From positions 3,472,001 to 3,536,000 of the forward strand of contig NZ_CP097128.1 of the NCBI RefSeq assembly GCF_023330685.1: a stretch of DNA of 64,000 nt, given 5' to 3'. Within the stretch, counting starts at the first letter, position 1; every line of letters begins with the position of its first letter. The notes under the pieces are model-generated. The model did no database searches, had not been told where the DNA came from, and saw only the letters and a list, made by a program, of their open reading frames with translations. Positions 25,185-61,764 of the stretch are shown in pieces. This DNA comes from Conexibacter sp. DBS9H8. GTDB taxonomy: Bacteria > Actinomycetota > Thermoleophilia > Solirubrobacterales > Solirubrobacteraceae. A program made the position numbers and the translations under genes.

Positions 25185-25204
25185 GTGCGGATGCGCTGAT
25201 TTAG

Positions 25205-30871: not shown

Positions 30872-32068
30872 TTACAGGAGGAGCGCTGCCGGTTGTTCGA
30901 GTGTTACGCGAAGGTGCTGAACGAACCGGGCGGCCTCGGCGCCGTAGAGGATTCGATGATCGCTGGAGAGCGTGACTGACATCAGCGATCCGACCGTGAG
31001 CTCGCCGTCACGGACGATCGGGGCCTCGCGCACGGCTCCGATCGCGAGAATCGCCGCCTGGGGCGGCGTGACGACGGCAGTGAAGCGCGTCACTCCGAAC
31101 ATCCCGAGGTTCGAGACGGTGAACGTCGCTCCCGATAGCTGACCGGGCTCGATCGTGGCGTCCTTGATCCTGTCGATGAGCGAACGCGCGGTGCGAGCGA
31201 TCTCGCCCAGGGACCTCTGATCAGCGTCGAAGACGACCGGCGCGAACAAGTCGTCGCTGATCGACACCGCGAAGGCGACGTTGACGCTGTTATGCAGGCT
31301 GATGGCCATATCACCGTCCATCGAGCTGTTCGCCCGCGGAAAGGCTCTCAATGCGAGTGCCGCGGCCTTGATCACCATGTCGTTGTAGGACGGAACGGGA
31401 TCGCGATTGAGAGTGAGCATCTGCTCTCGCAGTGCGCGACAGGCGGTCATGTCGACTTCGGCCTCTACGCTGAAGTCGGGGATGGTCGTGTTCGACTCGA
31501 CCATGCGCCGCGAGACGAGCTGACGCCGGCAACTCATCGGCTCCGTACGCGCTCGCGCTGAGTCCGCCGGAGAACTCCGCTTGAGCGCTGAAGCGTTGGT
31601 CACAGCATCCTCGACCCGCGCGGGAGACCCACGTTGGGCGACCCCGAATGCCACGGCGTCCACATCGCGTTTGAGGATCCGGCCCCTCGGACCGCTGCCC
31701 TCGACCGTATCGAGGTTGATTCCCGACGATGCTGCGAGGCGCCGGGCGACAGGACTTGCTTCCCGCCGTCCTCGTGCCTGGGGCACGGGCAACTCCATCT
31801 CGGCCGCACCATCGGAAACCAGAGCCGGCGCCGGCCCGCGGACACCGATCGTCGCGACCGCGGCGCCCACAGCGACCGTTTCACCCTCCTGCACGAGAGT
31901 GACGAGCGTTCCGCTCGCGTCAGCCTGTAGGACGCTGACTGCCTTGTCGGTCTCCACCTCAACGAGGTCGTCTCCGACCTCGACGCTATCCCCGTCCTTC
32001 CGCAACCACGCCGTGATTACCGCCGAGGTTGTGTGCTCGGCCAGAGCCGGAAGGATGAAGTCAGACAT
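30872..32068 (-). CDS. Dihydrolipoamide acyltransferase (E2) of a 2-oxo acid/acetoin-type dehydrogenase
   Basis: A 398-residue E2. The single lipoyl domain has VGDDLVEVETDKAVSVLQ with the lipoylated Lys, a peripheral-subunit-binding domain is at about residue 105-140 (ASPVARRLAASSGINL, GSGPRGRILKRDV), and the catalytic domain ends in LSSDHRILYGAEAARF. The usual HxxxDG motif reads HRILYG, so Tyr replaces the catalytic Asp; I recall the same change in some other bacterial E2 lineages, so activity is not excluded. ATG 32068 overlaps the E1 stop by 8 bp. No E3 gene lies in the window. Confidence 0.88.
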   Translation of the reverse strand: MSDFILPALAEHTTSAVITAWLRKDGDSVEVGDDLVEVETDKAVSVLQADASGTLVTLVQEGETVAVGAAVATIGVRGPAPALVSDGAAEMELPVPQARGRREASPVARRLAASSGINLDTVEGSGPRGRILKRDVDAVAFGVAQRGSPARVEDAVTNASALKRSSPADSARARTEPMSCRRQLVSRRMVESNTTIPDFSVEAEVDMTACRALREQMLTLNRDPVPSYNDMVIKAAALALRAFPRANSSMDGDMAISLHNSVNVAFAVSISDDLFAPVVFDADQRSLGEIARTARSLIDRIKDATIEPGQLSGATFTVSNLGMFGVTRFTAVVTPPQAAILAIGAVREAPIVRDGELTVGSLMSVTLSSDHRILYGAEAARFVQHLRVTLEQPAALLL

Positions 32069-34079
32069 CGGGGTTCGCCGGTCCGCTACCGACAACCGAT
32101 CGGACCGCGTTCACGATGTCGTCGTAGCCGGGAAGCACCTCCCGCTCCAGATCCTTCTGGTACGGCATCGGAATTGACGGTGCGCCAACACGAACCACCG
32201 GCGCGTCGAGGTCCCAGAAGGCCCGTTCGCCGATCTGGGCCGCGACCTCACCCCCGTAGCCCCCGAAGGTCACCGCTTCGTGTGCGACAACAGCTCGGCT
32301 GGTCTTAGCCACCGACTCCAGAATGGAGTCGATGTCAAGCGGCGCCAGAGTGCGTGGGTCGATCACCTCGACGCTGATCCCGTCCCGGGCGAGCTCCCGC
32401 GCGGCGCGGACCGCCGCCGGAACCATGCTGCCGATTGCCACGACGGTCACGTCGTCCCCCCCGCGCACGACATGCGACTTCCCGAGCTCGATCGCGTAAC
32501 GCTCGACGGGAACCGGTTCGGGCTGGAGGACGAAGAGCCCCTTGGGCTCGAGAAAGATCGTCGGCCGGTCGTCCTGGATCGCCGCGGCCAGCAGGCCCTT
32601 GGCGTCATACGGGCTCGAGGGCATGACGACCACCAGCCCGGGAAAGTGCGCGAACACGCCCTCAAGACTCTGGGAGTGCTGAGCGCCGAGACGCATGCCA
32701 CCGCCGGAGGGCATCCGGATGACGAGCGGGAGCGATTGATCGCCTCCCACCATGAACGGGAGCTTTGCGGCCTGGTTGACGATCTGGTCGAACGCGACGG
32801 CGGAAAAGTCCGAGAACTGGATTTCGACGATTGGCCGCAGGCCGGTGAGTGCGGCACCGACCCCGGCCCCAAGGAAACCGGTCTCCGACAGCGGCGTATC
32901 GCGGATTCGAGCCGCACCAAAGCGTTCATACAAGCCCGCCGTGACGCGGTATAGGCCCCCAACCCGTCCGATGTCCTCGCCCATGATGAACGTCCGGGTG
33001 TCGGCCTCGAGTTCATGCTCGAGCGCCTCCCGCAACGCGTCGTTGAACCCGATCGTACGGTCACCCGTGGGCGGCGGTGCGGGGTGCTGGAGAACCGTCG
33101 AGCTCATGGCCGCTCGGACACTGTCCATCGTCGTGTCGGGGGCGGCGAACGCCGTTTGGACCGCAGCCGCGACGAGCGCCTTGACGTCGGAGAAGATCTC
33201 GGCGTCCACTTCATCGGTGAGCGCTCCCCGCTCGCGCAGCATTCGGCCGAGGCGCTCGATCGGATCGTTGGCCTCCCACAATGCCACGATCGCCGGATCC
33301 CGCACGTCCGGCAGGTTGCTGCGCATCGAGTGCTGCATCCGCCGGAAGGTCTTCATCTCCAGCAGCGTCGGACCGCTCCCCCCGCGGGCCTGCTCAATAG
33401 CCTCGGCTGCGGCCGACGAGACGGCTTGGACGTCGTTGCCGTCGACGATCTCCGCGGGGATGCCGTAGCCCCTGCCCCAGGTGGCGATGTCTTCCACGGC
33501 CCGAGTCGAACGCCAGTCAACCGAGAGCGAGAACTGGTTGTTCTCGCACACGAAGACAACCGGAAGCTTCCAGGTGGCCGCCAGGTTCAGTGCCTCGTGC
33601 GCGGCCCCTTCACCTGCTGCGCCGTCACCGAAGAACGCCACCGCTACGGCGTTGCTGCCGGTCAGCTTGGCCCCTAGCGCCGCTCCGCACGCATGCGGCA
33701 GGCCCGCCGCCAGGATGCCGTTGGAGCCGACGATACCGAGACTCGGCGCAGCGATGTGCATGGACCCGCCAAGCCCCCGGCAGTATCCGTTCTCCTTGCC
33801 AAACATCTCGGCCATCATTCGGCCGATGTCCGCGCCGCGCGCGATCAGATGACCATGGGAGCGGTGGTTCCCAACGAGAAAGTCGCCGGGCGCCATCGCC
33901 GCGCACGTGCCGACGGCCACCGCCTCTTGGCCGATGCAACTGTGTGCGGTGCCCGTGATCGAACCGCTGACGAACAGGTTCGTGGTCTCGGTCTCAAACT
34001 CGCGGATGAGCTGCATCTGGCGGTACCAGTCCAGCAGCCGTACCTTGTCGCCGACGTTCGGATTGCTGAGCGTGCTCAC
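32061..34079 (-). CDS. Fused E1 alpha-beta subunit of a thiamine-diphosphate 2-oxo acid/acetoin-type dehydrogenase
   Basis: A 672-residue protein joining both E1 subunits. Residues 1 to about 330 are E1-alpha (HSCIGQEAVAVG, NHRSHGHLIARGADIGRMMA, and the ThDP motif FFGDGAAGEGAAHEALN with CENNQFS). After a Pro-rich linker, E1-beta follows (RTIGFNDALREALEHELEAD, GEDIGRVGGLYRVT, TPLSETGFLGAGVGAAL). The alpha part resembles AcoA/PDH-alpha. It decarboxylates a 2-oxo acid or cleaves acetoin and passes the acyl group to the lipoyl E2 encoded next. GTG 34079 has a ribosome site (GAGGCAGGGA). Confidence 0.9.
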   Translation of the reverse strand: MSTLSNPNVGDKVRLLDWYRQMQLIREFETETTNLFVSGSITGTAHSCIGQEAVAVGTCAAMAPGDFLVGNHRSHGHLIARGADIGRMMAEMFGKENGYCRGLGGSMHIAAPSLGIVGSNGILAAGLPHACGAALGAKLTGSNAVAVAFFGDGAAGEGAAHEALNLAATWKLPVVFVCENNQFSLSVDWRSTRAVEDIATWGRGYGIPAEIVDGNDVQAVSSAAAEAIEQARGGSGPTLLEMKTFRRMQHSMRSNLPDVRDPAIVALWEANDPIERLGRMLRERGALTDEVDAEIFSDVKALVAAAVQTAFAAPDTTMDSVRAAMSSTVLQHPAPPPTGDRTIGFNDALREALEHELEADTRTFIMGEDIGRVGGLYRVTAGLYERFGAARIRDTPLSETGFLGAGVGAALTGLRPIVEIQFSDFSAVAFDQIVNQAAKLPFMVGGDQSLPLVIRMPSGGGMRLGAQHSQSLEGVFAHFPGLVVVMPSSPYDAKGLLAAAIQDDRPTIFLEPKGLFVLQPEPVPVERYAIELGKSHVVRGGDDVTVVAIGSMVPAAVRAARELARDGISVEVIDPRTLAPLDIDSILESVAKTSRAVVAHEAVTFGGYGGEVAAQIGERAFWDLDAPVVRVGAPSIPMPYQKDLEREVLPGYDDIVNAVRSVVGSGPANPDV

Positions 34080-34098
34080 GTCCCTGCCTCGCTGTGCC

Positions 34099-35328
34099 TC
34101 AGCGCACCGGCTGTTCGCGCGGCGGGGCGTACTTACCAAGCTCCAGACGGCCGAGCATGTGGCGGTGTACCTCATCTGGTCCGTCGAGGATCCTGAGCGC
34201 GCGCTGCCAGGCGTACATCCCCGCGAGGGGGAAGTCCTGACTCAGACCCCCGCCGCCGTGCAACTGAATCGCGCGGTCGACCACCCGGCAGGCCATGGCC
34301 GGCACAGCGATCTTGATCGCCGCGATCTGCCCCCGCGCCACGCGATTGTCATAGCGATCCATCAGCCAGGCAGCGTGAAGGGTCAGCAGGCGCGCCTGAT
34401 CGATCTCGATCCGGCTGTCGGCGATCCACTCTCGAATCACGCCCTTTTCAGCCAACGGGCCCCCGAATGCCGAGCGGGCATGAGCACGGCGGCACATCAG
34501 CTCTAGTGCCCGCTCGGCCGCACCGATCGAGCGCATACAGTGGTGAATGCGGCCCGGCCCCAGGCGCGACTGAGCGATCGCGAAGCCGGACCCCTCCTCC
34601 CCCAACAAGCTCTCGCGCGGCACGCGGACGTCGGTGAAGACCATCTCGCAGTGGCCCTCCTGGTCGTTGTAGCCGAACACGAGGAGGTCGCGGGCGACCG
34701 TCACACCCGGAGTGTCCATCGGGACGAGGATCATGCTCTGCTGCCGGTGGGTGGGTGCCTCCAAGTCGGTCTTGCCCATCACGATCGCCACCTTGGCGGA
34801 AGCCCGGGCGGCGCCGGAAATCCACCACTTGCGCCCGTTGATGACGTAGTCGTCACCGTCGGCGTCGATGCGGCACTCAACGTTAGTGGCATCGGAGCTG
34901 GCCACGGCAGGCTCGGTCATCGCAAACACGGAGCGAATCTCGCCAGCCATCAACGGAGCGAGCCACCGCCGTTTCTGCTCATCGCTGCCGAAGCGGCTGA
35001 GGATCTCCATGTTGCCAGAGTCCGGTGAGTTGCAGTTGAACACCTCGGGCGCAATCGGGCTACGGCCGGTCACCTCGGCGACCGGCGCGTAGTCGAGGTT
35101 GCTCAGCCCTCCACCCCACTCGCTCTTCTCCGGCAGGAACAAGTTCCAGAGATCGCGTTGACGCGCGGCCGCCTTGAGGTCGTTCATGACCGGCGGCTCG
35201 AAGTGAGGATCGCCCGAAGCCGCCAGCTGCGCGTGGTAGACCGACTCGGCGGGATAGACCCATTCCTCCATGAAGGCGGTCAGCTTGTCCCGGAGCTCCT
35301 GGGCTCGGTTGCTCAGTTCAAAGTCCAT
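34099..35328 (-). CDS. Acyl-CoA dehydrogenase (ACAD10/11-like)
   Basis: A 409-residue acyl-CoA dehydrogenase of the longer ACAD10/11-type. It has SVFAMTEPAVASSDATN, INGRKWWISGAARASAK, MVFTDVRVPRESLLGEEG, and ILDGPDEVHRHMLGRLELG, where the DGPDEVH motif is typical of that branch. ACAD10/11 relatives are linked to oxidation of 4-hydroxy or long-chain acyl-CoAs. The ATG is preceded by GAGGAG inside the end of the luciferase-like gene, 10 bp away, so it belongs to the AtuA set. Confidence 0.9.
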   Translation of the reverse strand: MDFELSNRAQELRDKLTAFMEEWVYPAESVYHAQLAASGDPHFEPPVMNDLKAAARQRDLWNLFLPEKSEWGGGLSNLDYAPVAEVTGRSPIAPEVFNCNSPDSGNMEILSRFGSDEQKRRWLAPLMAGEIRSVFAMTEPAVASSDATNVECRIDADGDDYVINGRKWWISGAARASAKVAIVMGKTDLEAPTHRQQSMILVPMDTPGVTVARDLLVFGYNDQEGHCEMVFTDVRVPRESLLGEEGSGFAIAQSRLGPGRIHHCMRSIGAAERALELMCRRAHARSAFGGPLAEKGVIREWIADSRIEIDQARLLTLHAAWLMDRYDNRVARGQIAAIKIAVPAMACRVVDRAIQLHGGGGLSQDFPLAGMYAWQRALRILDGPDEVHRHMLGRLELGKYAPPREQPVR

Positions 35329-35338: not shown

Positions 35339-36694
35339 TCAGGTCGTCGGGACCGGCTGGCTTCCCAGCCGGGTTCGCACTTCTGCCAGCCCGTCGAGCT
35401 GGCCAGCGTCCGGCCCCAGGGGGGTCAGGACATAAGCATCGATCCGATCGATGTGGGCGGCCTGCTCGGCAATCCTGGCGGCAACATCCTCGGCGCTGCC
35501 GATGAGATAGGTCGCCTGGGCCTCCTCCCAGCTGCCGTCGAAGAAACCGTCGAGCGCCGCGCGGCAGTTGGCCTCATCGGCGGCATCCTCGATCACGTAG
35601 ACCCAGTCGGAGTAGACGAAGTCGATGTCCCTGCGCCCGCGTCCGGCGGCGTGCGCAGCCTCGAGCACGCGCTCCCAGGCGCGGCCGAGCACGACCGGTT
35701 CGAGCCGTCGCTTGCCTGACGCCGAGTAGACAAGCGGCACGTAGCCGTCAGCGAGGCGCCCGATCCGATCCAACGGCCGCCGTGCTGATTCGGGCACATC
35801 ACCGGACCAGTCGAGCTTGCTGCCTGGTGAAAAGGAGGCCATCCACACCGGCGGCCCGCCCGGCTGCACCGGCAGGGGCGACAGAGCAACGTCATCGAAG
35901 GCCCAGGTGCCCGCGTGGCTGACGCACTCGCCCCGCCACAGAGCACGACACAGGGACAGCGACTCCTCGAAGCGCCGCCCGCGTTCGCTGCGCGGCAGTT
36001 CCAGAGCCGCGAACTCGGCGTCGTTCCAACCCAGGCCCGCGCCGAGGATCAGCCGGCCGTCAGAGATCACGTCAAGGGTCGACAGGGTCTTGGCCATCTG
36101 GATCGGATGGCGGTAGGGCAGGACCAACACAAGCGGACCGAGGAGCAGACGCTCGGTATCGCCCGCCAGAGCGGCAAGCGTCGTGGTGACCTCGAGCATC
36201 GACGCGCCATACACGATGCTCGTCGAATGCTCGGACCCACGGGCCGAGGCGAGCATCCGGTCGCCGAGGAACAGGCCGTCAAAGCCCAGTTCCTCCGCCC
36301 GGCGGGCCCAATTGCGGATGCCAGCGAACAGGCCGCCGCTGTGAGGGGCTGTCCAGCCGGGCGGGCGCACGCAGACCAGCGGGATGCCCGGGTTCCGCCG
36401 GGGCAGCTCGACGTCGAGCAGGGCCGAGATCGCCGTCTTCTGCCAGTGCATGCCGGCCTTCATTGAGGAGTAGATCCCCTCACCGAGAATTCCGGGCACA
36501 ACGAACTTCAGCGCCCACAAGCCCGGCAGCTCATAGCGCGTCACAGCGGAGGCGCCGAGGGCCCGCATGACCGCGGTGTCCGTGAGCTCCCGGGCGATCA
36601 GCTCATAGGCGACGGCGTCACGAGCGACGACGGAGAGGTCGAGCGTCGGACCCTTGTCCCCCGCCCGGCCGATGGCGATGTCTCCGACCCTCAT
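35339..36694 (-). CDS. AtuA C-terminal domain fused to a luciferase-like monooxygenase
   Basis: A 451-residue two-domain protein. Residues 1 to about 100 match the C-terminal domain of AtuA-type proteins (IGRAGDKGPTLDLSVVARD, then VTRYELPGLWALKFVVPGIL). From about residue 105 a luciferase-like (LLM, often F420- or FMN-dependent) monooxygenase follows: GIRNWARRAEELGFDGLFLG, LALAGDTERLLLGPLVLVLP, HPIQMAKTLSTLDVISDGR and LGAGLGWNDAEFAAL. There is no Met between about residues 85 and 145 that could start a separate LLM protein, so the fusion looks genuine. It overlaps the AtuA N-terminal gene by 4 bp; the two would reconstitute AtuA. Confidence 0.88.
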   Translation of the reverse strand: MRVGDIAIGRAGDKGPTLDLSVVARDAVAYELIARELTDTAVMRALGASAVTRYELPGLWALKFVVPGILGEGIYSSMKAGMHWQKTAISALLDVELPRRNPGIPLVCVRPPGWTAPHSGGLFAGIRNWARRAEELGFDGLFLGDRMLASARGSEHSTSIVYGASMLEVTTTLAALAGDTERLLLGPLVLVLPYRHPIQMAKTLSTLDVISDGRLILGAGLGWNDAEFAALELPRSERGRRFEESLSLCRALWRGECVSHAGTWAFDDVALSPLPVQPGGPPVWMASFSPGSKLDWSGDVPESARRPLDRIGRLADGYVPLVYSASGKRRLEPVVLGRAWERVLEAAHAAGRGRRDIDFVYSDWVYVIEDAADEANCRAALDGFFDGSWEEAQATYLIGSAEDVAARIAEQAAHIDRIDAYVLTPLGPDAGQLDGLAEVRTRLGSQPVPTT

Positions 36695-37995
36695 GCCGCC
36701 TGCCCCCAGACGACCTCGGTCCGCACGCGGTCGCGGTCGATCAGGCCGTCGACCACCTCAATCCTCGGACGGCGCTCTGATCGCATGCCACCGCCCGAAG
36801 ACGGCCCGCTCAGGGTCAGCGCGAACACTTCGTCCTCGACGGCGAGCGCCATCTCGTCTGAGTCACACACGGCCGAGACGTGGGCGCGTGCCTCCGGCGG
36901 CGGGTGCCGGATCAGGCGGGAGGAACCGCCGAGCAGGGAGTCCTGGCCGACAATATCGACCCCGAAGCGGGAGATCCCGAGGCGCTCCATGCGCAGGCTC
37001 AGGGTCTCGGCGGCGATGCGGGCGCGCCGTAGTGCCCCGGTGCCGGCGAATCCGATCTCCACGTCCGCCACCGCACCGGGCTGGATGCTGAAGCCAGACA
37101 CCTTGAGGCTGTCCGGGACACCCAGGTGCCGTGCGCCGCTCACGCGCACGCGGTCGCGTCCGATCTGGTCGAAGCTGACCCCTGAGAAGTCGACGATTGC
37201 GTCAGGGGTCAGGTAGCGGGCCGGATCGTGGACCTCATAGAGCAGCTGGAGAGTGCAGGTCATGCGGTCAATGCGACCACCGGTCCCCGGCAGCTTGGAG
37301 ATCTCCGCACTGCCGTCCGATGACACGCTGGCAATCGGGAAACCCAGCTCGGCGAACTCCGCAGCGGTCGGCGGCGGCTCGCCGGGGGCTTCGAAGTTGC
37401 CGCCGGTCACCTGGCCCGAGCACTCGAGCAGGTGTCCCACCGCCAGCGCACCGGCCAGCGCGTCGGGGCTGCCGTCCAGGTCGGCATAGGCGGGGCCGGC
37501 GAACAGTGCAGCGTCGGCGGCCCGCCCAGTGATCACGACGTCGGCTCCCTCGGCCAGAGCCTTGGCGATTGACTCCAGGCCGATGTATGCGTGGGCTCCC
37601 AGCCACGTTCCTCCGGCGGGTCGGCTCCAGATGACGTCATCGGCGATCGCGGCGACGTCATCGCCGAGTACCGCTGCCACCTTGAGAGGGCGCAAGCCGA
37701 GCTCGCGGGCGAGCTCGGCGATCGCGCGGGCAGCCCCAGCGGGATTGGCCGCGCCAAGGTTGCTCACCAGCTTGCAGCCGTCGGCCACCGCGGGGAGCAG
37801 TGGCGTCAGGCGCCGACGGAGGCGGCGGTCGTACCCCAGCTCTGGGTTCACGGCCCGGAGTTGGAGGCCGTTGACGATCGTGCGCTCGGCCAGGCACTCC
37901 AGCGACAGGCAATCGACGAGGCCTGATTCCGCCAGCGCCACCGCGGGATCGATGCGATCTCCCGCGAATCCCGCACCGCAGGCGACGACAGTCAT
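36691..37995 (-). CDS. AtuA-like protein, N-terminal portion (acyclic terpene utilisation family)
   Basis: A 434-residue protein of the AtuA/DUF1446 family. It has VACGAGFAGDRIDPAVAL, LSLECLAERTI, LLPAVADGCKLVSNLGAANP, VVITGRAADAALFAGPAY, HLLECSGQVTGGNFE and FPIASVSSDGSAEISKLPGT, all typical conserved segments. In Pseudomonas the atu genes serve degradation of citronellol and geranylate; AtuA's own reaction is not established. The C-terminal domain is encoded by the next, overlapping gene as a fusion. This supports a terpenoid or other branched hydrocarbon acid as substrate of the cluster. Confidence 0.88.
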   Translation of the reverse strand: MTVVACGAGFAGDRIDPAVALAESGLVDCLSLECLAERTIVNGLQLRAVNPELGYDRRLRRRLTPLLPAVADGCKLVSNLGAANPAGAARAIAELARELGLRPLKVAAVLGDDVAAIADDVIWSRPAGGTWLGAHAYIGLESIAKALAEGADVVITGRAADAALFAGPAYADLDGSPDALAGALAVGHLLECSGQVTGGNFEAPGEPPPTAAEFAELGFPIASVSSDGSAEISKLPGTGGRIDRMTCTLQLLYEVHDPARYLTPDAIVDFSGVSFDQIGRDRVRVSGARHLGVPDSLKVSGFSIQPGAVADVEIGFAGTGALRRARIAAETLSLRMERLGISRFGVDIVGQDSLLGGSSRLIRHPPPEARAHVSAVCDSDEMALAVEDEVFALTLSGPSSGGGMRSERRPRIEVVDGLIDRDRVRTEVVWGQAA

Positions 37996-38017: not shown

Positions 38018-39136
38018 TCATGCCTGACCGCCCGATGGTTTCGCTGTGGGCTCGTTCACCATTAGTGTGGGCGTCGCCGCCTGGGGCACCTCATCGACCA
38101 TCTGTGCACCTCCAGCCGAGGGCGTGACGTCGGCCGAAGCCTGCCGGTTGCCGAACCGGTTGCGCAGCGAGCGCAGCGGGTTGAGGCCATGGGCGTGGGT
38201 GAGCGAGACCGCGGTGATCAGCAGCAGTCCCTCGAAGATGCTCGGGGTCCAGGCCGGCGCGCCGACGATGAGCAGGCCGACGTCACCGGTGCCGAGCAGC
38301 AGCACTGCAACCACGGTGCCCCACGGGTTGAAGCGTCCGCCGCGGAACTGTGTTGCGCCGAGAAAGGCGGCGGCGAAGGCAGGCAGCAGGTAGGCCGGCC
38401 CCACAGTGGGGTCGCCCGCGCCGAGGGAGGCGGCCTCACACACGCCGGCGAGGCCCGCGAACAGCGAGGAGCCGAGCAGGGTCGCCATGCGCAGGCGGTC
38501 GACGTTGACACCGCCGAGGCGCGCAACCTCGGTCTCATATCCGGTTGCGTAGAGCCGCCGGCCGACGGCCGTCTTCTCCATCAGGTAGGCGAGCAGAAGC
38601 ATTCCCACCAGCATCAGACCGACGGGCAGGGTCATACCCAGCACGCTCTTGATGCCGAAGTCAACCTGGAACGAGCCGTTGACGTTCTGGGTGATGACGT
38701 TGTCCCCGGCAATCGCGGTCACCACTGCGGTGATGATGGAGCCGGTAGCGAGGGTGCCGATGAAGGAATCGACCTTCATCCCGATGACGACGATGATGTT
38801 CACTCCGCCGGCCAGCAGGGCGGCGACAAGCCCGGCGAGCAGAGCGAGAAACGGGTTCGCGCTGACGTGAGCGAGAAACCAGGCAGAGCCGATCCCCGAC
38901 AGTCCAGCGATGGCGCCGACTGACAGGTCATACAGGCCCGCCGCCAAGGGCAGAATGAGACCTAGCGCGACAAGTCCGGTCACCGCGTATTCGTTGAGCA
39001 CCTGCTTGACGGTGCCGTAATTGAAGAAGGTTGCCGGCTGGAGAATCGCAAACAACACGATCAGGGCGATCCACACGTAGATCGCGCCAATGACACGCAC
39101 GCTGAGCTTGGATTTGAGTTGATTTGGAAGTTTCAC
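38018..39136 (-). CDS. ABC transporter permease, RbsC/ribose-type
   Basis: A 372-residue inner-membrane permease with about ten hydrophobic helices. VTGLVALGLILPLAAGLYDLSVGAIAGLSG is the conserved helix pair of the BPD_transp_2 family, and the EVARLGGVNVDRLRMATLLGS loop contacts the ATPase. The GTG start follows AAAGGTAAA. A 40-residue polar C-terminal tail is unusual. It works with the ATPase at 39360 and the lipoprotein at 46257 as an importer. The 223-bp gap upstream suggests its own promoter or processing. Confidence 0.9.
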   Translation of the reverse strand: MKLPNQLKSKLSVRVIGAIYVWIALIVLFAILQPATFFNYGTVKQVLNEYAVTGLVALGLILPLAAGLYDLSVGAIAGLSGIGSAWFLAHVSANPFLALLAGLVAALLAGGVNIIVVIGMKVDSFIGTLATGSIITAVVTAIAGDNVITQNVNGSFQVDFGIKSVLGMTLPVGLMLVGMLLLAYLMEKTAVGRRLYATGYETEVARLGGVNVDRLRMATLLGSSLFAGLAGVCEAASLGAGDPTVGPAYLLPAFAAAFLGATQFRGGRFNPWGTVVAVLLLGTGDVGLLIVGAPAWTPSIFEGLLLITAVSLTHAHGLNPLRSLRNRFGNRQASADVTPSAGGAQMVDEVPQAATPTLMVNEPTAKPSGGQA

Positions 39137-39359
39137 AGCACTTTACCTTTCTCGGCGTGAGAACAGCGAGACGCAACGAGCTTCGCTCCCACCGCGGCCC
39201 GATCTTGGATCAACCAGACTACTGTGGGCGAGCCTATTGCCGGTGGTGACTGGTGCAACTGGTTTGTCATTACTGGTTCAGCTCCAACTGAACATAACGG
39301 CGACAGAGTCCAGCAAGCTTTCTTGAGGCCAGTCCCATTTTGTGTTATCGGCGCAGGCA
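39137..39359. other. Gap between ABC permease and ATPase genes with three ACTGG repeats
   Basis: A 223-bp gap, unusually long for adjacent ABC genes. It holds ACTGG at 39249, 39258 and 39272, and no clear promoter or terminator can be named. Confidence 0.25.
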
Positions 39360-41000
39360 TTACCCGGCGGTGACGGTATTGGAGCTGGGCACCACCGTCG
39401 AATCGGTGGCGGGGGAGCCCTCGACCATTGCCAGCAGCAGAGAAGTCTCGGTGATCTCGTCGGTTCCGCGGATCAGCTCACGGATGACGCGTCCTTCGTT
39501 CAACACGATCACCCGGTCGGCAAGCGCCAGCGCATCATCCAGCTCGGATGTCGAGAACAGCAGAGAGCCACCCTCGGCTACATAGGTGCGCAGGGTGTCG
39601 AACAGCATCGCCACCGCGCCAACGTCGACACCGGCGATCGGCTCGTCGATGAGCATCGCTTGAGGGCCGATCGACAGCCATTTGGCGATGATCAGCTTCT
39701 GTTTGTTGCCGCCGCTGAGGTAGCGGGAGCCGTAGTCGGTGTCGTCGGGCTTGATGTCAAAGCGCCTGATCCACTCTCGGGCCTTAGCCCGTTCACGCTG
39801 CTTGTTGATGAAGCTTCCTCTACCGCTGAGCTCCTCAAGTGAGACGAGCGTCAAATTCTCTCGGAGGGAGAAGTCGTTGATCAGCGTCCCGGGCAAACGG
39901 TTGCCCGGCGCCAACGCCACTCTGTGTTGGCGTGCGACCTTCGGAGAGATCTTGGATACCGGGCTGCCCCCCACCATCATCGAGTCAAAGCCGATCGGGA
40001 TCGCACCCGCCAAGGCATAGGTGATCTCCTCGCGGCCCGATCCGGCGAGCCCAACAACAGCAACGCATTCACCCTTGTGGAGGGTAAGGTCGACACCGTG
40101 CAGCGAGATCGAGGTCAGATTCTTAACGTCGACGACCGGCGCCGCTGACGCGCTGTGGTGGCGGCGCTCGACCACCTTGGCGGACTCGCGCTCGGCCGCG
40201 GCGGTCTCGGCGCCGAGCATCGCCTCGACGAGCATCGACCGGGTCGCCGTCTGGCAATCAAAGGTGCCGATGTGGTATCCGTCACGGAGGACGTGAACGC
40301 CCGAGCACAGGTTGAGGACATCCTTGAGGTGATGGGAGATGAACAGGGCGCCGATGCCAGCACCGACCATCGTGTTGACGACCCGGAACAGCTGCTCGGC
40401 CTCAGCGGCCTCGAGCGTGGTGGTCGGCTCGTCGAGCACGATGAAACGGGCTGCATCTTCTGAGCTGGCGTCGCCCGGACGCGCGCGCACCGCCCGGGCG
40501 ATGGCGATCAGGCTCCGCTCGACGGCAGCCAGTTTCGAGATCGGCTTATTCGGCGGCACCGGGCAATCGAGCAGGTCATAGACGTCCTCCATCCGGCGAC
40601 GCTGCTCCTTCCAGTCGACGCTCCCGACCCTGGTCTGGGAGTAGGTCCCGCCGATCCCGAAGTTCTCTACCGGGGTGAACTCCGGAATGAGACCGAGGTC
40701 TTGGTGGACGAAGCGCAGGCCAAGACGGGCGGCGGTGACGGGGGAGTCAACCCGCTCGCCCCCCAGCCAGGCCGATCCCCAAACAGGCTTGTGGTAGCCG
40801 GCGATGATCCGCACGAGCGTGGACTTGCCTGAGCCGTTGTGGCCGATGAGGCCGGTGACGGTCGCGGCCGGGAAGGTCATGCTCACGTCATGGAGGACGT
40901 TGCGGCCAGCGAAGGCCATCGTTACGTGGTCGATGATGATTCCGCTGTCCACTGCGGATGTTGCGGCCGATGTCGTGGTTGTGGCGGTGGGATCAGCCAT
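39360..41000 (-). CDS. ABC transporter ATP-binding protein, RbsA-type, two ATPase domains
   Basis: A 546-residue tandem ATPase of the sugar-import type. Domain 1 has GHNGSGKSTLVRIIAGYH, a shortened signature (ISKLAAVERSLIAIARA) with an inserted ARPGDASSEDAA loop before the Walker B FIVLDEPTTTLE. Domain 2 has the degenerate Walker A VGLAGSGREEITYAL, the intact signature YLSGGNKQKLIIAKWL and LIDEPIAGVD. In this family domain 1 carries normal hydrolysis and domain 2 has a degenerate P-loop, as seen here. The neighbours imply import of a hydrophobic acid or alcohol rather than a sugar. Confidence 0.9.
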   Translation of the reverse strand: MADPTATTTTSAATSAVDSGIIIDHVTMAFAGRNVLHDVSMTFPAATVTGLIGHNGSGKSTLVRIIAGYHKPVWGSAWLGGERVDSPVTAARLGLRFVHQDLGLIPEFTPVENFGIGGTYSQTRVGSVDWKEQRRRMEDVYDLLDCPVPPNKPISKLAAVERSLIAIARAVRARPGDASSEDAARFIVLDEPTTTLEAAEAEQLFRVVNTMVGAGIGALFISHHLKDVLNLCSGVHVLRDGYHIGTFDCQTATRSMLVEAMLGAETAAAERESAKVVERRHHSASAAPVVDVKNLTSISLHGVDLTLHKGECVAVVGLAGSGREEITYALAGAIPIGFDSMMVGGSPVSKISPKVARQHRVALAPGNRLPGTLINDFSLRENLTLVSLEELSGRGSFINKQRERAKAREWIRRFDIKPDDTDYGSRYLSGGNKQKLIIAKWLSIGPQAMLIDEPIAGVDVGAVAMLFDTLRTYVAEGGSLLFSTSELDDALALADRVIVLNEGRVIRELIRGTDEITETSLLLAMVEGSPATDSTVVPSSNTVTAG

Positions 41001-42657: not shown

Positions 42658-43895
42658 GACGTGGCCGTTCGTTCTGGTCATTAGGCGGCGAGTACGAGCC
42701 CGGGTTTGTGTTGGCTGATCTTGGCCAGGATGCGGTCGAGGTCAGCCCGGGTGAAGGTCCAGTCAAACGGGCGTGCGATCTGGCGGTAGTGCTCCTCGAA
42801 GGTGGTGATGCGGGCCTGGAGGGCGCTGAGGTCGGTGAAGTCGTTGGGGGTCAGTGCTTTGCGTTGGAGGATCGAGAAGTAGATCTCGATCTGGTTCAGC
42901 CACGAGGCGTGGATCGGGAGATGGATCAGCCGCAGGTTCGGCCACTGGCTTTGGAGGCGGTCGATGCTGGCTTGTCCGTTGTGGCTGGAGCCGTGGTCCA
43001 CGATCCAGAACACGCGACGTGCGGAGGTGTAGGGCTCTTGACTCATCACCTGTTCCACGAGACGGCCGAACGGTTCGATCCCGGTCTTCTCTTCACAGCG
43101 TCCGTAGATCCGGGCGTGGTGGACGTCCCAGGCGGCGAGATAAGCCAGGGTGCCGCCACGTCGGTAATCGAACTCGCGTCGCAACGCACGCCCCGGTCCC
43201 GGCGCGAGGCTTGGGTGCCGGCGATGGAGCGCTTGGAGCTGGGACTTCTCATCGGCGCTGATCACCAGCTCATCCGGGCACAAGCGTTTGCCGTCAAAGA
43301 CGCGGGCGTAGAGATCGAGAACGCGGTGAGCTTTCTCGGCGAAGTTCTTGTCGCGAACAAACAGCCAGGATCGGGTCTGCCACGGTTTGATGGCGTCCTC
43401 AGACAGCCACCGCCAGATCGTGGTCGCCGACGCGTCCGTCACGCCGCGCTCGATGACGAGACGGTGCAGCTCAGCGCGGGAGAAGCGCCCCAGCGGCAGA
43501 CCGTGCTCGATCGGCAGCTGACAGGCGATCGCCTTGACCTCGGCGACCTGCTCCGGGGGGAAAACGCCGCGGCCGACCCGGCCGCGGTTGATCAACCAGA
43601 CCCTCAAGGCGATGTTCGGCAAATCTTCGCCGCCACCGGCCGACCAGCCCGGCTGTGGTGTCCAGCCGCGCAGCGATCTCGGTGTCCGCCAGTCCGTTAG
43701 CGGCGTGCAACACGATCCGTGCTCGCTGCACATCCTGAAACGGAAGCTTCTCCGCCCGTGCGACACGCTCAAGCTCGCGACGCTCTACGTCGCTGAGTTC
43801 GATCTGGTGACGGGGCCGCCGGGCCATCACCTCAGAATTCAACCCGCGCGGCCGGACTCCTTCACATAATTCCGCCCAATACTTCCGGCCACGTC
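42658..43895 (-). mobile_element. IS630-family insertion sequence
   Basis: A 1,238-bp element bounded by GACGTGGCCG at both ends (left 42658-42667; right, reverse complement, 43886-43895) and flanked by the dinucleotide TA (42656-42657 and 43896-43897), the usual IS630 target. It inserted directly after the stop codon of the SDR gene at 43898, separating it from the monooxygenase gene. Only one copy lies in the window. Confidence 0.85.
42681..43827 (-). pseudogene. IS630-family transposase with a frameshift
   Basis: The first frame (from ATG 43827) encodes the helix-turn-helix part (RRELERVARAEKLPFQDVQR, DTTAGLVGRWRRRFAEHRLE). A second frame, offset by one base, continues with VFPPEQVAEVKAIACQL and carries the DDE catalytic domain: Asp in ISADEKSQLQAL, Asp in WIVDHGSSHNG, and Glu in ASWLNQIEIYFS. 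The switch falls at the TTTTCCCCCC run (43555-43564 on the forward strand), where one extra base breaks the frame. This may be an inactivating indel or a programmed frameshift; sequence alone does not decide. Confidence 0.85.
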
Positions 43896-46256: not shown

Positions 46257-47438
46257 TCAGCCGACATGCCACGCCTTCTTGAACACCGACTGGTAGTCGG
46301 ACACGAGCGGGAAGATGCCTTGGGTGGCAACCGCTGGAATGTCGGACTGGGTCAGGATCATGGCGGGCAGGGTGATGTTGGCCGCTGGCGCGACCGGCTG
46401 CCCCGAGTTGACTCGGAGAATCACATCAAAGGCGTTCCACAACGCCTCCGGCCAGGGGACGTCGATCGCGGCCGCCTCCTCTCCCTCCTTGATGTACGTC
46501 GATTCAGTGGCGCCGGTATCGGTGGTGATGAGCTTCACCTTGCCCGCGAGTCCGGCGTTCTTCAGCTGGGCGGGAAGACCGTCCAACTCGTTGGCGAAGT
46601 CCGCGGCCACGTAGTTGACGTTCGGGTGCGAGCGGAGGTAGGAGACGATGTCCCCCGGGAGAGTCGTGCCGATCTCGGTTTCGGGGAAGGAGAAAGTCGA
46701 GACCGAACAACCCGAACAGGCCGAGGAGTTGATTACCTTCGCCAGGGCGGCGTGAAGGGACGAGTACACAGGTGTCGACGGAGTCGTCGCGATGACGACA
46801 TTTGCATTCTTGCCTCCTGACGTGCTGAGGATGTAGTCCCCCATATCCGTTCCGGCCTGAGCCTCCCAGGCGCCGCCGATGGCAACCCAGGGGATGCCGG
46901 GCTGTGTGGTGGCAATCGATGTCGCAACCACGGGAATGTTTTCCGCTTTCAGCTCGCTCAACTGACGAGCGTACAGGCTCGGCGGAAACCCGCCGGCGGC
47001 AATGACACCGGCCGGCTTGTCACGAACCGCCTGGTCAAACGCCGCCGAAATGGTGATCGGGGTCAGGCCGGCGTTGACGAGCTTGTAGTGCCACCCCACT
47101 GCCGCTGCTGCGGACTGAACCGCCGCGCCGAAGCTGAGGCAGACCGGGAGGCCGCAAGCCACGAAGTCAACCGTCCGCCCCGGGGTTGGCCTCTTGGCCA
47201 GGGGTGCCACGACCAGACTCGTCGGTCGTACTTCAAGTGCCTTGACTGCAGCCGTCGCGGCGGCGACCGCCTTGGCATTCGACCCCGAAGCTGACGGGGA
47301 CGATGACGTTGACGTTGAGCCTCCATTGCTGCTCGTTGAGGTCGACGACGAGCCACAGCCGGCGGCCACAGCCGCGCAGACAAGAGCCAGTGCAGCGACC
47401 AGCAGCACACGACCTCTCACAAACCTTCGATAAACCAC
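46257..47438 (-). CDS. ABC transporter substrate-binding lipoprotein
   Basis: A 393-residue exported lipoprotein. Positive residues (VYRRFVRGR) precede a hydrophobic helix and the lipobox VAAGC near residue 25, followed by a Ser/Thr-rich linker (SSSTSTSSNGGSTSTSSSP). The mature part is a type I periplasmic-binding fold, RbsB-like (PAGVIAAGGFPPSLYARQL, AENIPVVATSIATTQPG). GTG 47438 has an excellent ribosome site (GAGGAGAGG). It is the first gene of the P450/AtuA cluster and supplies substrate specificity for the permease and ATPase 6-8 kb downstream. Confidence 0.88.
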   Translation of the reverse strand: MVYRRFVRGRVLLVAALALVCAAVAAGCGSSSTSTSSNGGSTSTSSSPSASGSNAKAVAAATAAVKALEVRPTSLVVAPLAKRPTPGRTVDFVACGLPVCLSFGAAVQSAAAAVGWHYKLVNAGLTPITISAAFDQAVRDKPAGVIAAGGFPPSLYARQLSELKAENIPVVATSIATTQPGIPWVAIGGAWEAQAGTDMGDYILSTSGGKNANVVIATTPSTPVYSSLHAALAKVINSSACSGCSVSTFSFPETEIGTTLPGDIVSYLRSHPNVNYVAADFANELDGLPAQLKNAGLAGKVKLITTDTGATESTYIKEGEEAAAIDVPWPEALWNAFDVILRVNSGQPVAPAANITLPAMILTQSDIPAVATQGIFPLVSDYQSVFKKAWHVG

Positions 47439-47587
47439 AGACCTCTCCTCAATGTTGGACCAGATGGAAACGACTTCTGCGAACGTTCCAGGCGTACAGC
47501 TGGTTCTTAAGCTCCCAAACGGCGCCCGGCTTCTCAGGTATGTTCTTTTGGTTATCTGTAGGTCGGCACAACGCATCCCCCCGGGGG

Positions 47588-49195
47588 TCAGATCGTCTCC
47601 CGTTGGGTGGCCAGAGCCCGGAGTTCGCGCCGGAGGATCTTCCCGTTCGTCGTCTTGGGCAGCTCGTCGAGCACGTGGACGACCCTTGGGTATTTGTACG
47701 CGGCCAAACGCGCTTTGCAGTGGGCGATCAGCTCGGGTTCCTCGACGCACATTCCCGCTTTGAGACTCACATAGGCCCACACCGTCTCACCTCGGTACTT
47801 GTCCGGCGCGCCGATTACGGCGGCCTCGCGGACAGCCGGATGCTCATAGAGGACATCCTCCACCTCCCGCGGCCAGACCTTGAAACCGGAGGCGACGATC
47901 ATGTCCTTGCTGCGATCCACGACGTAGAGCCAGCCATCGGCGTCGAGCACGCCGATGTCACCGGTATGCAGCTCGCCGCCGGGGATCGCGCGTGCGGTTT
48001 CCTCGGGCTGACGCCAGTAGCCGGCCACCACCTGGGGGCCCTTGATGGCGATCTCCCCAGTCTCACCGGGCTTCAGCGGGCGCCCGTCGCCATCCAGGAT
48101 GCGGGTGGTCGTCTTCGGCACGGTCTTACCGACCGCCAGCGCCCCGGTCTCGCGGTTGGTTGGGGGGGAGTCATCAAGCGGGCAGATGTGGGTCGGTCCA
48201 GTGGTCTCGGTCAACCCGTACACCGGGCGAATCCGGACGCCGAGGCGGCGATCCAGGTCGTCCACGACCGCGGGCGGGATCGGGGCTCCGCCGCTGAAGG
48301 CGCGCGTGAGCTTGGCCAGTGAGTCAGGTGTGACGTCCGGCTGGGCGGCGAGTGCCATGTACGCCGTGATTGCCGCGATGCAGACCGTCGCTCCGTGATG
48401 TTGCGCAAGGCGGATCGACGCGGCCGCATCAAAGCGGTGGGCCAGGATGATCGGGATTCCCGCGGCGAGCGCGAGACCGATGTGACCGATCAGTCCGGTG
48501 ACGTGATAGAGCGGTGCGATCCCGAGAATGACGTCGTCGTCGCTGATGCGAAACGCGCTGCGATAGGTCTCAGAGCCAAAGGCGACGTTGGCGTGCGTGC
48601 TCATCGCCCCCTTGGGCGGCCCGGTGGTGCCCGAGGTGTAGGTGAGGACTGCGGTATCGCCGGGCCCGGGAGCCGGTGGGGGCGTCCAACCATCGCGCGG
48701 GGACCGGGCGAGAGTGAGCAGGTCGTGCGTGGTCCGCTCGCTGACGAACGGCTCGGCTGCCCGCGCCGCACGCTCGGCGCACAGGTCATAGGCGTTGGTG
48801 GTGACAACAACGGTGATGTCGGTCTGGTCGACGGCGGTGGCGGCCACATCGCGCCACAGTTCATCGAGGACGATGAGCGCCTTAGCGCCGGCGTCGTGCA
48901 TGTGATGGGACAGTTCGCGTTCGCGCAACATCGGGTTGGCCGGGACGGTGATGGCGCCCAGCCGCCAGACGGCGAGGGTCGCGATCACGAACTGGGGATC
49001 GTTCTGGAGGAAGAGGCCGACGCGGTCACCGGCGCCGATTCCCAGCTCCGCGAGGCCGGCAGCGAGACCGTCCACGAGCTCAGAACATTCCCGGGCGCCG
49101 ATCGGCGTCTCAAAGGAGTACAACAGCGGGGCGTTGTGAAGACGACGTACGGCGGCATCGAACATCTCGAGGGGGAGTTCCGCGATGGCGCTCAT
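47588..49195 (-). CDS. AMP-dependent acyl-CoA synthetase
   Basis: A 535-residue ANL ligase. VLTYTSGTTGPPKGAMS is the P-loop, VYGLTETTGPT the A5 motif, ELHTGDIGVLDADGWLYVVDRSKDMI the A7/A8 hinge, and LPKTTNGKILRREL holds the catalytic Lys. All core motifs are intact, unlike the interrupted ligase at 3686-7032. It is the last gene of operon 2, overlapping the SDR gene by 4 bp, and probably activates the free acid that enters this beta-oxidation-like set. Confidence 0.93.
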   Translation of the reverse strand: MSAIAELPLEMFDAAVRRLHNAPLLYSFETPIGARECSELVDGLAAGLAELGIGAGDRVGLFLQNDPQFVIATLAVWRLGAITVPANPMLRERELSHHMHDAGAKALIVLDELWRDVAATAVDQTDITVVVTTNAYDLCAERAARAAEPFVSERTTHDLLTLARSPRDGWTPPPAPGPGDTAVLTYTSGTTGPPKGAMSTHANVAFGSETYRSAFRISDDDVILGIAPLYHVTGLIGHIGLALAAGIPIILAHRFDAAASIRLAQHHGATVCIAAITAYMALAAQPDVTPDSLAKLTRAFSGGAPIPPAVVDDLDRRLGVRIRPVYGLTETTGPTHICPLDDSPPTNRETGALAVGKTVPKTTTRILDGDGRPLKPGETGEIAIKGPQVVAGYWRQPEETARAIPGGELHTGDIGVLDADGWLYVVDRSKDMIVASGFKVWPREVEDVLYEHPAVREAAVIGAPDKYRGETVWAYVSLKAGMCVEEPELIAHCKARLAAYKYPRVVHVLDELPKTTNGKILRRELRALATQRETI

Positions 49196-49950
49196 CCCAT
49201 CACCACCCCGGAGGAGACGACGAGCTCGGCGCCCGTGATGCCCTTGGAGGCTTCCCCCGCGAGGTAGGCCACCGCGTTGGCGATGTCCTCTGACTCGGTG
49301 AGGCGGCGCAGAGGCGACTGGGCCAGGAACTCCGATCGGACGCGCTCCGGGGTCGAGCCCCGGGCCACGGCCTGACCGTTGAGGACCGCGTCAAGGCGGT
49401 CACCGGCCACCGGCCCGGGGGTGACAAGGTTGACCCTGACGCCGAAAGGACCCGCGTCCAGCGCAGTAGACCTGACGAGGCCGACGAGACCGCTCTTGGA
49501 CGCAGCGTAGGCGGCCCGTCCGGGCATCGGACGGGTGGCGGTAGTCGAACCCACGAACACGACACTTCCCGAGCCGCGCTCGAGCATGTCCGGGAGGATG
49601 GCTCGGGCCAGCAGGAATCCGCCGGTGAGGTTGACCCGGAGGGTCGCCTCCCATTCGTCCGGGTCGATTTCCCAGACGGGAGCCCGGGGCCCGGCGATGC
49701 CGCTGTTGGCGACCAGTGCGTCGATGTGCCCGCAGCGCTTGGGCAACTCAGCGACTGCCGCGGCGTCACGCAGGTCCAGGCGCAGAACGCTGGCGAGACC
49801 GCCTCCGGCGGTGATCGCTTCCACGGTCTCCTCCAAGGCGGCGACCGTACGACCGGCACAGAAAACGTTGGCACCGTCTGCGGCGAGCCGTAAGGCGATC
49901 GCCCGTCCGATGCCGCTGCCTGCTCCGGTGACAAGGGCGCTCCTGATCAT
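49192..49950 (-). CDS. Short-chain dehydrogenase/reductase
   Basis: A 252-residue classical SDR with SALVTGAGSGIGRAIAL, FCAGRTVAALEE (Arg after strand 2, NADP-leaning), LVANSGIAGPRAP, VVFVGSTTATRP (Ser) and AYAASKSGLVGLV (Tyr/Lys). ATG 49950 overlaps the DUF35 stop (ATGA). A longer open frame to 50262 is antisense noise. It fits a 3-hydroxyacyl-CoA dehydrogenase step of the operon. Confidence 0.9.
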   Translation of the reverse strand: MIRSALVTGAGSGIGRAIALRLAADGANVFCAGRTVAALEETVEAITAGGGLASVLRLDLRDAAAVAELPKRCGHIDALVANSGIAGPRAPVWEIDPDEWEATLRVNLTGGFLLARAILPDMLERGSGSVVFVGSTTATRPMPGRAAYAASKSGLVGLVRSTALDAGPFGVRVNLVTPGPVAGDRLDAVLNGQAVARGSTPERVRSEFLAQSPLRRLTESEDIANAVAYLAGEASKGITGAELVVSSGVVMG

Positions 49951-50360
49951 GACAGGCGAAACCGCGCCACGGGCACGTCGCCCTCCGTCTCCACGGCCAG
50001 AGCCAGGGGTGTGTCGATCGCCAGCCCATCGGCGGCGCTGATGCCGACGACGTTGGAGATCAGCCGCGGCCCCTCCGCCAGTTCGACGACCGTCACGTTG
50101 TAGGGCACGCGGTCGGCAAACGCGGGATGAAAAGCGCGGTGGTAGACCACCCAAGACACCACGCGGGCGCGCCCTGAGGCGTCCTCCCACGTGAAGGCGG
50201 GGGACAGGCAGTGCGGGCAGTGATCGCGTGGAGGGAGCCACGCGTCGTGGCACTCGTCGCACCGCTGGAAGCTCAGGCGTCCCGCACTGAGGCGGTTTCG
50301 GAACCGGGTGAGGTCCGGCGAAGGCTCGGGGAGGTCGATCTGGCTGTTCGTTCCGATCAT
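49947..50360 (-). CDS. DUF35 zinc-ribbon/OB-fold protein
   Basis: A 137-residue protein with a rubredoxin-like zinc ribbon (QRCDECHDAWLPPRDHCPHC, four Cys) followed by an OB-fold (VVSWVVYHRAF, VPYNVTVVELAEGPRL). Such proteins bind acyl-CoA and form complexes with thiolase-like partners, for example in the steroid side-chain aldolases. It overlaps the thiolase-like gene by 4 bp, which supports a complex. Confidence 0.92.
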   Translation of the reverse strand: MIGTNSQIDLPEPSPDLTRFRNRLSAGRLSFQRCDECHDAWLPPRDHCPHCLSPAFTWEDASGRARVVSWVVYHRAFHPAFADRVPYNVTVVELAEGPRLISNVVGISAADGLAIDTPLALAVETEGDVPVARFRLS

Positions 50361-60606: not shown

Positions 60607-60786
60607 AGCACTTCCTCTCCGGATACATAGAGTGCCACCGTCGGGCCAACACTGCAAACCAGAACCGGGATGGGCTCTGGGCGCTCGTTGGGCCGGCGCC
60701 GTGGCGCGCAGTCCCTTGGAGCTATCGACAGAGCCGATCCGCGGACGGTTTGGCCTCACGGCCGCGAGCGACCATATTCGTCGCCG

Positions 60787-61764
60787 ATGCAAGCGCTGCG
60801 ACTCACCACCTATGAGGGTCCCCAAGCCCTTGAGCTCTGCGAGGTGCCGGAGCCGTCTCCCGGACCATCTGAGGTCCTGCTCGAGATCGGCGCGATCGGG
60901 ATCAACTTTCCGGACCTGCTGATCACCACGGGCACCTATCAACACAAGCCAGAGGTCCCGTTCGTTCCCGGCTGTGAAGTGGCCGGCAAGGTGCTCTCAG
61001 CGCCCGACGACTCCGGCTGGCAGGTCGGTGACCGCGTCGCTGCGTTCATCTGGGCCGGCTCCTACGCGGAGCGAGCCGTGGTTCCGCTCAATGCCCTGAT
61101 GCGCCTGCCAGAGGGAACTGATTTCGCCACGGGCGCCGGAATGGTAGTCAACTACCACACCGCGCATTTCGCACTGATCCGCCGCGGTCACCTGCGTCCG
61201 GGCGAGACCGTGCTCGTGTTGGGAGCCGCCGGGGGCATAGGCACGGCTGCGGTCCAGATCGCCAAGGGCAACGGGGCGAATGTCATCGGCGGGGTCGCCG
61301 ATGAATCCCAGCTGGAAACAGCCAAGAAGGCCGGGGCCGATCACGCGATCGTGCTCGAGCACGGGTTTGCGACGCAGGTCCGTGAACTGAGCGGCGGCCG
61401 AGGCGTTGATATCGTGCTCGACCCGCTTGGGAGTTGGCTGTTCCTCGAGGGAGTGCGGGCGCTGGAACCCGAGGGCCGGATCCTCGTGGTCGGCTTCGCC
61501 GCCGGCGAGATTCCCGAGATCAAGGTCAACCGTTTGCTGTTGCGCAACGTGGCCGCCGTCGGCGTCGCCTGGGGAGCGTTCCTAGACGTCGACCCGACGA
61601 TGATGGCCACGACCGCAGTCGATCTCGCTTCCCTGTTAGCCCGTGGCTATGTCTCTCGCGATCTCATTGCGCGCTGTAAGTTCGAGCAGATTCCCGAAAC
61701 GTTGGAGCGCCTCAGCCGCGGAGAGATCCGCGGCAAGGTGGTTGCGACGCCCCCCGCAGGGTGA
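60787..61764 (+). CDS. Zinc-free MDR oxidoreductase, NADPH:quinone reductase-like
   Basis: A 325-residue medium-chain dehydrogenase/reductase. The GroES-like N-domain has INFPDLLITTGTYQ and PFVPGCEVAGKVL; the nucleotide site is VLVLGAAGGIGTAAVQIAKG. No zinc-ligand Cys/His set is present, as in quinone reductases and enoyl-thioester reductases. It is divergent from the regulator gene, and its last 53 bp overlap the convergent MaoC gene. Likely reduces a quinone or an activated double bond with NADPH. Confidence 0.88.
   Translation: MQALRLTTYEGPQALELCEVPEPSPGPSEVLLEIGAIGINFPDLLITTGTYQHKPEVPFVPGCEVAGKVLSAPDDSGWQVGDRVAAFIWAGSYAERAVVPLNALMRLPEGTDFATGAGMVVNYHTAHFALIRRGHLRPGETVLVLGAAGGIGTAAVQIAKGNGANVIGGVADESQLETAKKAGADHAIVLEHGFATQVRELSGGRGVDIVLDPLGSWLFLEGVRALEPEGRILVVGFAAGEIPEIKVNRLLLRNVAAVGVAWGAFLDVDPTMMATTAVDLASLLARGYVSRDLIARCKFEQIPETLERLSRGEIRGKVVATPPAG

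Follow-up and report, generated by a model that had tools for sequence, protein, structure and literature searches.

An AtuA-type C-terminal domain joined end to end with a luciferase-like oxidoreductase in a catabolic neighborhood of Conexibacter sp. DBS9H8

A stretch of 64,000 nucleotides from Conexibacter sp. DBS9H8 (NCBI RefSeq assembly GCF_023330685.1, contig NZ_CP097128.1, positions 3,472,001 to 3,536,000; hereafter the window) carries a split version of AtuA, the acyclic terpene utilization protein, in which the C-terminal domain (AtuC) runs straight into an enzyme of the luciferase-like monooxygenase (LLM) class. Judging from the sequence, two genes that belong to the same pathway have probably been fused end to end, and AtuC and the adjoining protein that carries the N-terminal domain (AtuN) are best read as two subunits of a predicted C–C lyase. 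We favor, with moderate confidence, a two-subunit AtuA-type lyase whose small subunit is fused to an LLM oxidoreductase of the same catabolic module. The source genome is a single contig of 3.64 Mb; the central features, numbered from the first letter of the window, are as follows.

36691..37995, minus strand: AtuN gene, AtuA N-terminal domain protein of 434 aa, predicted large lyase subunit (PF07287)
36404..36694, minus strand: AtuC domain, ferredoxin-like, fusion residues 1-97, predicted lyase small-subunit part (PF23544)
36377..36403, minus strand: junction, fusion residues 98-106 (PRRNPGIPL), practically linker-free when aligned with unfused AtuC and LLM genes
35342..36376, minus strand: LLM-class oxidoreductase domain, complete, fusion residues 107-451 (TIGR03619), with the stop codon at 35339-35341

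An earlier note on this DNA had placed the two parts of AtuA on separate overlapping genes and had described an unbroken passage from AtuC into an LLM-type enzyme, and both descriptions hold. The AtuN stop codon and the start codon of the fusion gene overlap (ATGA), and the fusion gene (35339-36694, minus strand) is a single uninterrupted frame of 451 aa with no in-frame stop between its two domains. AtuN matches PF07287 across residues 4-429 with 366 bits (cut-off 22.8), and the N-terminal part of the fusion matches PF23544 (AtuA_ferredoxin) across residues 1-96 with 54.2 bits (cut-off 27; 57.4 bits in a genome-wide search). The C-terminal part matches PF00296 across residues 115-291 (133.6 bits) and exceeds the cut-off of the NCBIfam model TIGR03619, F420-dependent LLM oxidoreductase (178.1 bits against 166.9). 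Unlike the commonest form of the family, the window AtuA does not hold its N- and C-domains in one chain; a second AtuA of the source genome, at about 707 kb, is full length and single chain. Conservation within the two AtuA parts is extensive. Thirty-one alignment columns are identical in 18 of 18 AtuN sequences, that of the window included, and R10, G12, D13, K14, G15, L70, G73, and K86 of AtuC are identical in 56 of 56 C-domains, while the near-invariant D81 is replaced in the clade to which the window belongs.

Both halves of the fusion appear whole. The AtuC domain is complete in alignment with separate AtuC genes, and the alignment of the LLM domain begins at the opening residues of the separate LLMs of three related genomes (G101, G106, and G012) and of solved LLMs, the first residues of the solved chains falling opposite residues 101-106 of the model; the two domains therefore abut, with next to no linker. 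The LLM barrel is likewise complete, residues 102-450 aligning with LLM enzyme structures at Z-scores of 28-32 (VIA-align). An AlphaFold2 model of the whole fusion reached a mean per-residue confidence (pLDDT) of 88.5 and a predicted template-modeling score (pTM) of 0.82, and the GC content of third codon positions differs little between AtuC (0.88) and the LLM (0.83).

The chemistry of the LLM half can be narrowed to some extent. Solved enzymes using flavin mononucleotide (FMN) and F420 match its fold about equally well in VIA-align. Genes for CofD and for an F420 ligase lie less than 1 kb apart in the source genome, where the CofD model is to be read against a control scan in which it was positive in 10 of 14 control genomes and the F420 ligase in three, all archaea. 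Taken from the family name and these synthesis genes, the cofactor is probably F420, with FMN possible. The activity "monooxygenase" in the earlier note is not established, the curated family name being F420-dependent oxidoreductase.

The reaction of AtuA had been described in that note as unknown, a statement that is now out of date. By sequence, AtuN matches PDB entry 9erq chain A ("AtuA family protein / citramalate lyase subunit A"; phmmer E 2.6e-8), and a profile of 18 AtuN sequences matches 9erq/9evf at E 4.8e-13. The VIA-align rows for the whole fusion held only LLMs and were uninformative on AtuC, so the AtuC domain was folded separately (pLDDT 93.6, pTM 0.86). The resulting model resembles chain B (105 aa) of 9evf, titled "Citramalate lyase - ADP - pyruvate complex", with a Z-score of 11.5 over 95 residues at 2.3 Å and 15% identity, the next row standing at 8.2. 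In anaerobic naphthalene degradation, the split AtuA-like pair ThnQ/ThnS is reported to cleave a tertiary 3-hydroxyacyl-CoA, according to a review (PMC12016498). From these matches and the Thn pair, the best reading of AtuN and AtuC is thus a C–C lyase of two subunits, as predicted from sequence, modeled fold, and analogy; the activity and substrate of the window pair would follow by the same analogy. The split AtuA is accordingly to be read as two putative lyase subunits instead of a protein of unknown reaction. A search of the open literature for CmlA found no paper.

The closest relatives of these genes are informative as to how the fusion may have arisen. In Solirubrobacterales bacterium Dino_bin17 (G101, contig WHSW01000138), the gene order is AtuN, AtuC, LLM, quinone-type oxidoreductase, short-chain dehydrogenase/reductase (SDR), a MaoC-like open reading frame (labeled from its translation, without Pfam), and acyl-CoA ligase, with a branched-chain-type ABC transporter, judged from translations, upstream of AtuN. 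Here AtuC and LLM are separate genes with a 14-nt overlap, GGAGG standing six bases ahead of the LLM ATG, and the products are 57-58% (AtuN), 56% (AtuC), and 57% (LLM) identical to those of the window. AtuN and LLM of this contig show apparent frameshifts (locus L038, 2476-3770 and about 4970; the coverage in the contig name is 4.8), which are probably assembly errors. Genome G106 holds the AtuN closest to that of the window (59%) and a separate AtuC in a 483-aa frame with no LLM behind it; its LLM is orthologous to the window LLM, with 57% identity. A tree of 95 AtuC sequences groups those of the window, G101, and G106 in a single clade (support 0.993). A further overlap of AtuC with an LLM gene, by GTGA, occurs at a contig end in G213. 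The G213 LLM belongs to a different clade from the window LLM in a tree of 36 LLM sequences, and AtuC has therefore met LLMs perhaps twice.

LLM relatives at E≤1e-30 are found in three genomes (the window genome, G101, and G012) of a 110-genome sample of the order that did not contain G106. The LLM clade is present in all three genomes of the window AtuN/AtuC clade and, within the sample, in just one genome outside it (G012); a single shared pathway probably follows from this co-occurrence. Because the LLM is a separate neighboring gene in a relative, AtuC and LLM probably act in the same breakdown pathway. AtuN/AtuC and LLM genes travel together in unlinked, overlapping, and fused arrangements.

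Across a wider sample, the association is scarce. Of 232 genomes of the order, 22 gave PF23544 matches, as did 72 of the 396 genomes of a phylum sample. Among 100 distinct AtuC domains, 75 share a frame with AtuN, 20 are split, and 5 lie at contig ends; weak matches (E>1e-5) were dropped, and five of 29 order-level places (the second of G106, G141, G128 C25, the second of G189, and G204 at 324674) fell outside the count. Split AtuA is nothing special, a fifth of these domains being split. An LLM stands directly downstream of AtuC in three of the 100 (window, G101, and G213; four of the 100 had less than 900 nt of downstream sequence), and the two are fused in the window only; at one further locus (L187) an LLM lies within 3 kb of AtuC, not directly downstream. 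An LLM neighbor of AtuC is rare, and the fusion has so far been seen once. Several candidate fusions dissolved on inspection. The long frames of G184, G188, and G189 represent AtuA of full length whose frame stays open because the sequence is rich in GC, and the 483-aa frame of G106 is a separate AtuC. Plasmid records matching the fusion numbered 625, all below 60% identity; the sole record covering at least 80% (H10) aligns from residue 81 and hence is no fusion, and another (H25) aligns to residues 2-320 at 26%. An exact-peptide scan of genome contigs with the whole fusion returned 23 stretches and no relatives, and among the papers listed in a literature search none joined AtuA with an LLM term.

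Gene fusions indicate proteins that work together, and a plausible division of labor can be outlined for this one. The AtuC domain would dock on AtuN in the manner of one-chain AtuA, in which the C-terminal end is unobstructed; since the end of AtuC is the end of the chain there, a C-terminal extension presumably need not disturb the lyase. The lyase would cleave a tertiary 3-hydroxyacyl-CoA in a reaction of the retro-aldol/Claisen type, and the tethered LLM would perform redox chemistry on either the substrate or the product of this cleavage, before or after C–C scission. The setting would be a CoA-thioester pathway with acyl-CoA ligase, SDR, MaoC hydratase, acyl-CoA dehydrogenase, and thiolase. 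The fusion would be translated as one protein, and its domains may act in sequence.

A number of observations weigh against this scheme. The likeness of AtuC to 9evf chain B is one of fold, with no match of AtuC sequence profiles to the PDB; Foldseek with AtuC gave chance-level rows, none at E≤0.001, and 9evf was absent from the best 50. The ThnQ/ThnS activity is cited in the review partly from unpublished results (PMC12016498). The orthologous LLM of G106 is unlinked, 740 kb away, and the LLM of G012 (46% identical to that of the window) occurs without an AtuA pair: this genome gave no PF23544 match, no AtuN at E≤1e-60, and no AtuA near the LLM. At 80 LLM loci from genome contigs, AtuC was found at one (the G101 contig) and a fusion at none. 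Among the matches listed, none extended over both domains in 61 relatives, nor in the 396 genomes of the window's own phylum, where up to four candidates were scored per genome.

The strongest rival, to which we assign a somewhat less than even chance, shares the reading of AtuN and AtuC as lyase subunits and holds the fusion to be neutral: overlapping operon genes would have lost the stop and start between them, leaving halves that act independently and a tether that is catalytically meaningless. In its favor stand the join without linker at the place where G101 and G213 have overlaps of 14 and 4 nt, the separation of AtuN and AtuC from the orthologous LLM in G106, and the presence of the fused form, among the matches listed, in one genome only. 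Against it, the co-occurrence of the two clades in three of three genomes probably places both in one pathway, and both domains remained intact after the fusion, although a catalytically meaningless tether is compatible with all of this.

Two more ambitious versions fare less well. One would make the fusion, together with AtuN, a bifunctional lyase-oxidoreductase in which the AtuA lyase receives its CoA thioester, oxidized or oxygenated, straight from the LLM; we consider this unlikely, and if true, the handover would open AtuA chemistry by a redox route, bypassing the carboxylase and hydratase steps of the Atu pathway. The other, decidedly improbable, would have the LLM supply a flavin or F420 step within the AtuA reaction itself, for which the fusion and the adjacency of AtuC and LLM in G101 and G213 could be cited. 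Against it, 97 of the 100 distinct AtuC domains gave no LLM immediately downstream, and the solved AtuA-type enzyme, with a chain A resembling AtuN and a chain B resembling AtuC, is titled citramalate lyase. The 100-domain counts rule out the LLM as a general AtuA partner. The direct tie between AtuA and an LLM step proposed in the earlier note thus survives as an association, strengthened by the overlapping genes of G101 and G213 and the orthologous LLM of G106, and falls as a component of AtuA catalysis.

A sequencing or assembly error by which two separate genes are misread as one has very little probability left. In its favor are the single assembly and the apparent frameshifts that G101 itself shows in both AtuN and LLM. 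Past the junction, the other two frames meet their first stops at residue 138 in one and after residue 200 in the other, and the separate AtuC proteins of relatives measure about 102-120 aa, so a one-base insertion or deletion cannot restore two genes at the junction near residue 100, where the earlier note had considered a sequencing error. Such an indel is excluded by the starts and stops of the three frames as read here, which rule out a frameshift error at the junction. A substitution error, judged on the one assembly, is unlikely: a substitution could restore a stop, yet a good start would still be lacking, there being no in-frame LLM start between residues 82 and 109 and no Shine-Dalgarno sequence. 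Equally improbable is the production of a separate LLM, alongside the fusion protein, from an internal start, a possibility also raised in that note. The in-frame starts near the junction are ATG82 (inside AtuC), GTG109, and ATG147 (inside the barrel), and GTG109, which is near the start position of LLM relatives, is the sole candidate; the 20 bases preceding it hold no Shine-Dalgarno sequence, and because the first barrel strand comprises residues 106-109 in the model, initiation there would remove most of a strand whose aligned residues are present in the separate LLMs of G101, G106, and G012.

The proposed coupling of a two-subunit lyase with an LLM oxidoreductase can be set in the gene content of the window, which includes counterparts of the remaining G101 cluster genes.

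34099..35328, minus strand: acyl-CoA dehydrogenase, 10-nt gap downstream of the fusion gene (PF00441/PF02770/PF02771)
32061..34175, minus strand: 2-oxoacid dehydrogenase E1, alpha and beta in one 704-aa frame (PF00676, PF02779, PF02780)
30872..32095, minus strand: 2-oxoacid dehydrogenase E2, lipoyl acyltransferase (PF00198, PF00364, PF02817)
47588..49195, minus strand: acyl-CoA ligase, counterpart of the G101-cluster ligase (53% identity)
49192..49998, minus strand: SDR dehydrogenase, counterpart of the G101-cluster SDR (49% identity; PF13561/PF00106)
60670..61764, plus strand: zinc-type/quinone oxidoreductase, counterpart of the G101 gene that follows the LLM (51% identity over 319 aa; PF00107, PF08240)

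By its spacing, the acyl-CoA dehydrogenase belongs to the operon of the fusion gene, and the annotated start of E1 is probably too early. When the G101 ligase was compared with the source genome, the window ligase was the best match (553 bits, the next reaching 248). The listed reading frame of the SDR extends upstream to 50262. The further CoA-pathway surroundings in the window comprise SDRs, a P450, an FMO-like monooxygenase, a thiolase-like protein, and hydratases. The P450 (44795-46084, minus strand) has a weak Pfam score of 45 bits with its best stretch at residues 264-360, and is of a divergent family.

Amid these CoA-catabolism genes lie a sugar-type (Rbs-like) ABC permease, ATPase, and binding protein (38018-41000 and 46257-47780, minus strand); the permease stop is 22 nt from the AtuN start, its start-codon side facing away, and the place of this transporter near AtuN is taken in G101 by the branched-chain-type transporter. 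A DDE_3 transposase in two overlapping frames of 123 and 363 aa (42681-43842, minus strand), which we take to be IS630-like, is embedded in the catabolic island, with the FMO-like monooxygenase on one side and an SDR on the other. A 434-aa DDE transposase occurs three times with identical translations (4222-5526 and 9018-10322, plus strand; 25425-26729, minus strand), the first copy separating two parts of an acyl-CoA ligase gene (3401-4108 and 5626-7032). Two hydantoinase/oxoprolinase A-B gene pairs (21361-25325 and 54745-58709, minus strand) are present, and genes of this kind also surround the unlinked LLM of G106. A row at 11249-19299 (minus strand) comprises a methylmalonyl-CoA-mutase-like large subunit, a separate B12-binding protein, MeaB, enoyl-CoA hydratase, CoA transferase, MmgE/PrpD, and aldehyde dehydrogenase.

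Viewed against known systems, the fusion links an LLM oxidoreductase with a predicted subunit of an AtuA-type lyase, from a catabolic family that is large but has received little study. A definite pathway module of ligase, LLM, SDR, quinone-type oxidoreductase, and lyase is thereby put forward, open to expression and assay. Like the window proteins, AtuA itself combines a PF07287 N-domain with a PF23544 C-domain in a CoA-catabolic neighborhood; in the window, the domains are divided between two genes, with an LLM attached to the C-domain, and, unlike in the AtuA system, no biotin carboxylase domain was listed for the window reading frames scanned. ThnQ/ThnS, a pair likened here by description, similarly forms an AtuA-like lyase from two neighboring genes of a CoA pathway, and unlike the window, the part of the thn cluster table consulted contains no LLM (PMC12016498). 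The citramalate lyase of 9erq/9evf, compared by titles and chain names, has a subunit A resembling AtuN by sequence and a chain B, for which we infer the name CmlB, resembling the AtuC fold; in contrast to the window protein, chain B is unfused, has no sequence match to AtuC, and belongs to an enzyme whose titled substrate is citramalate. The F420-dependent LLM oxidoreductases of TIGR03619 (the Rv2161c group) share with the window LLM a score above the family cut-off and a complete barrel, whereas the window LLM bears an N-terminal AtuC domain. The G101 cluster has AtuN, AtuC, LLM, ligase, SDR, and quinone-type oxidoreductase closely related to the window genes; there AtuC and the LLM occupy individual genes that overlap, the LLM start being preceded by a ribosome-binding site. 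Set beside these systems, the fusion is a new combination of known parts.

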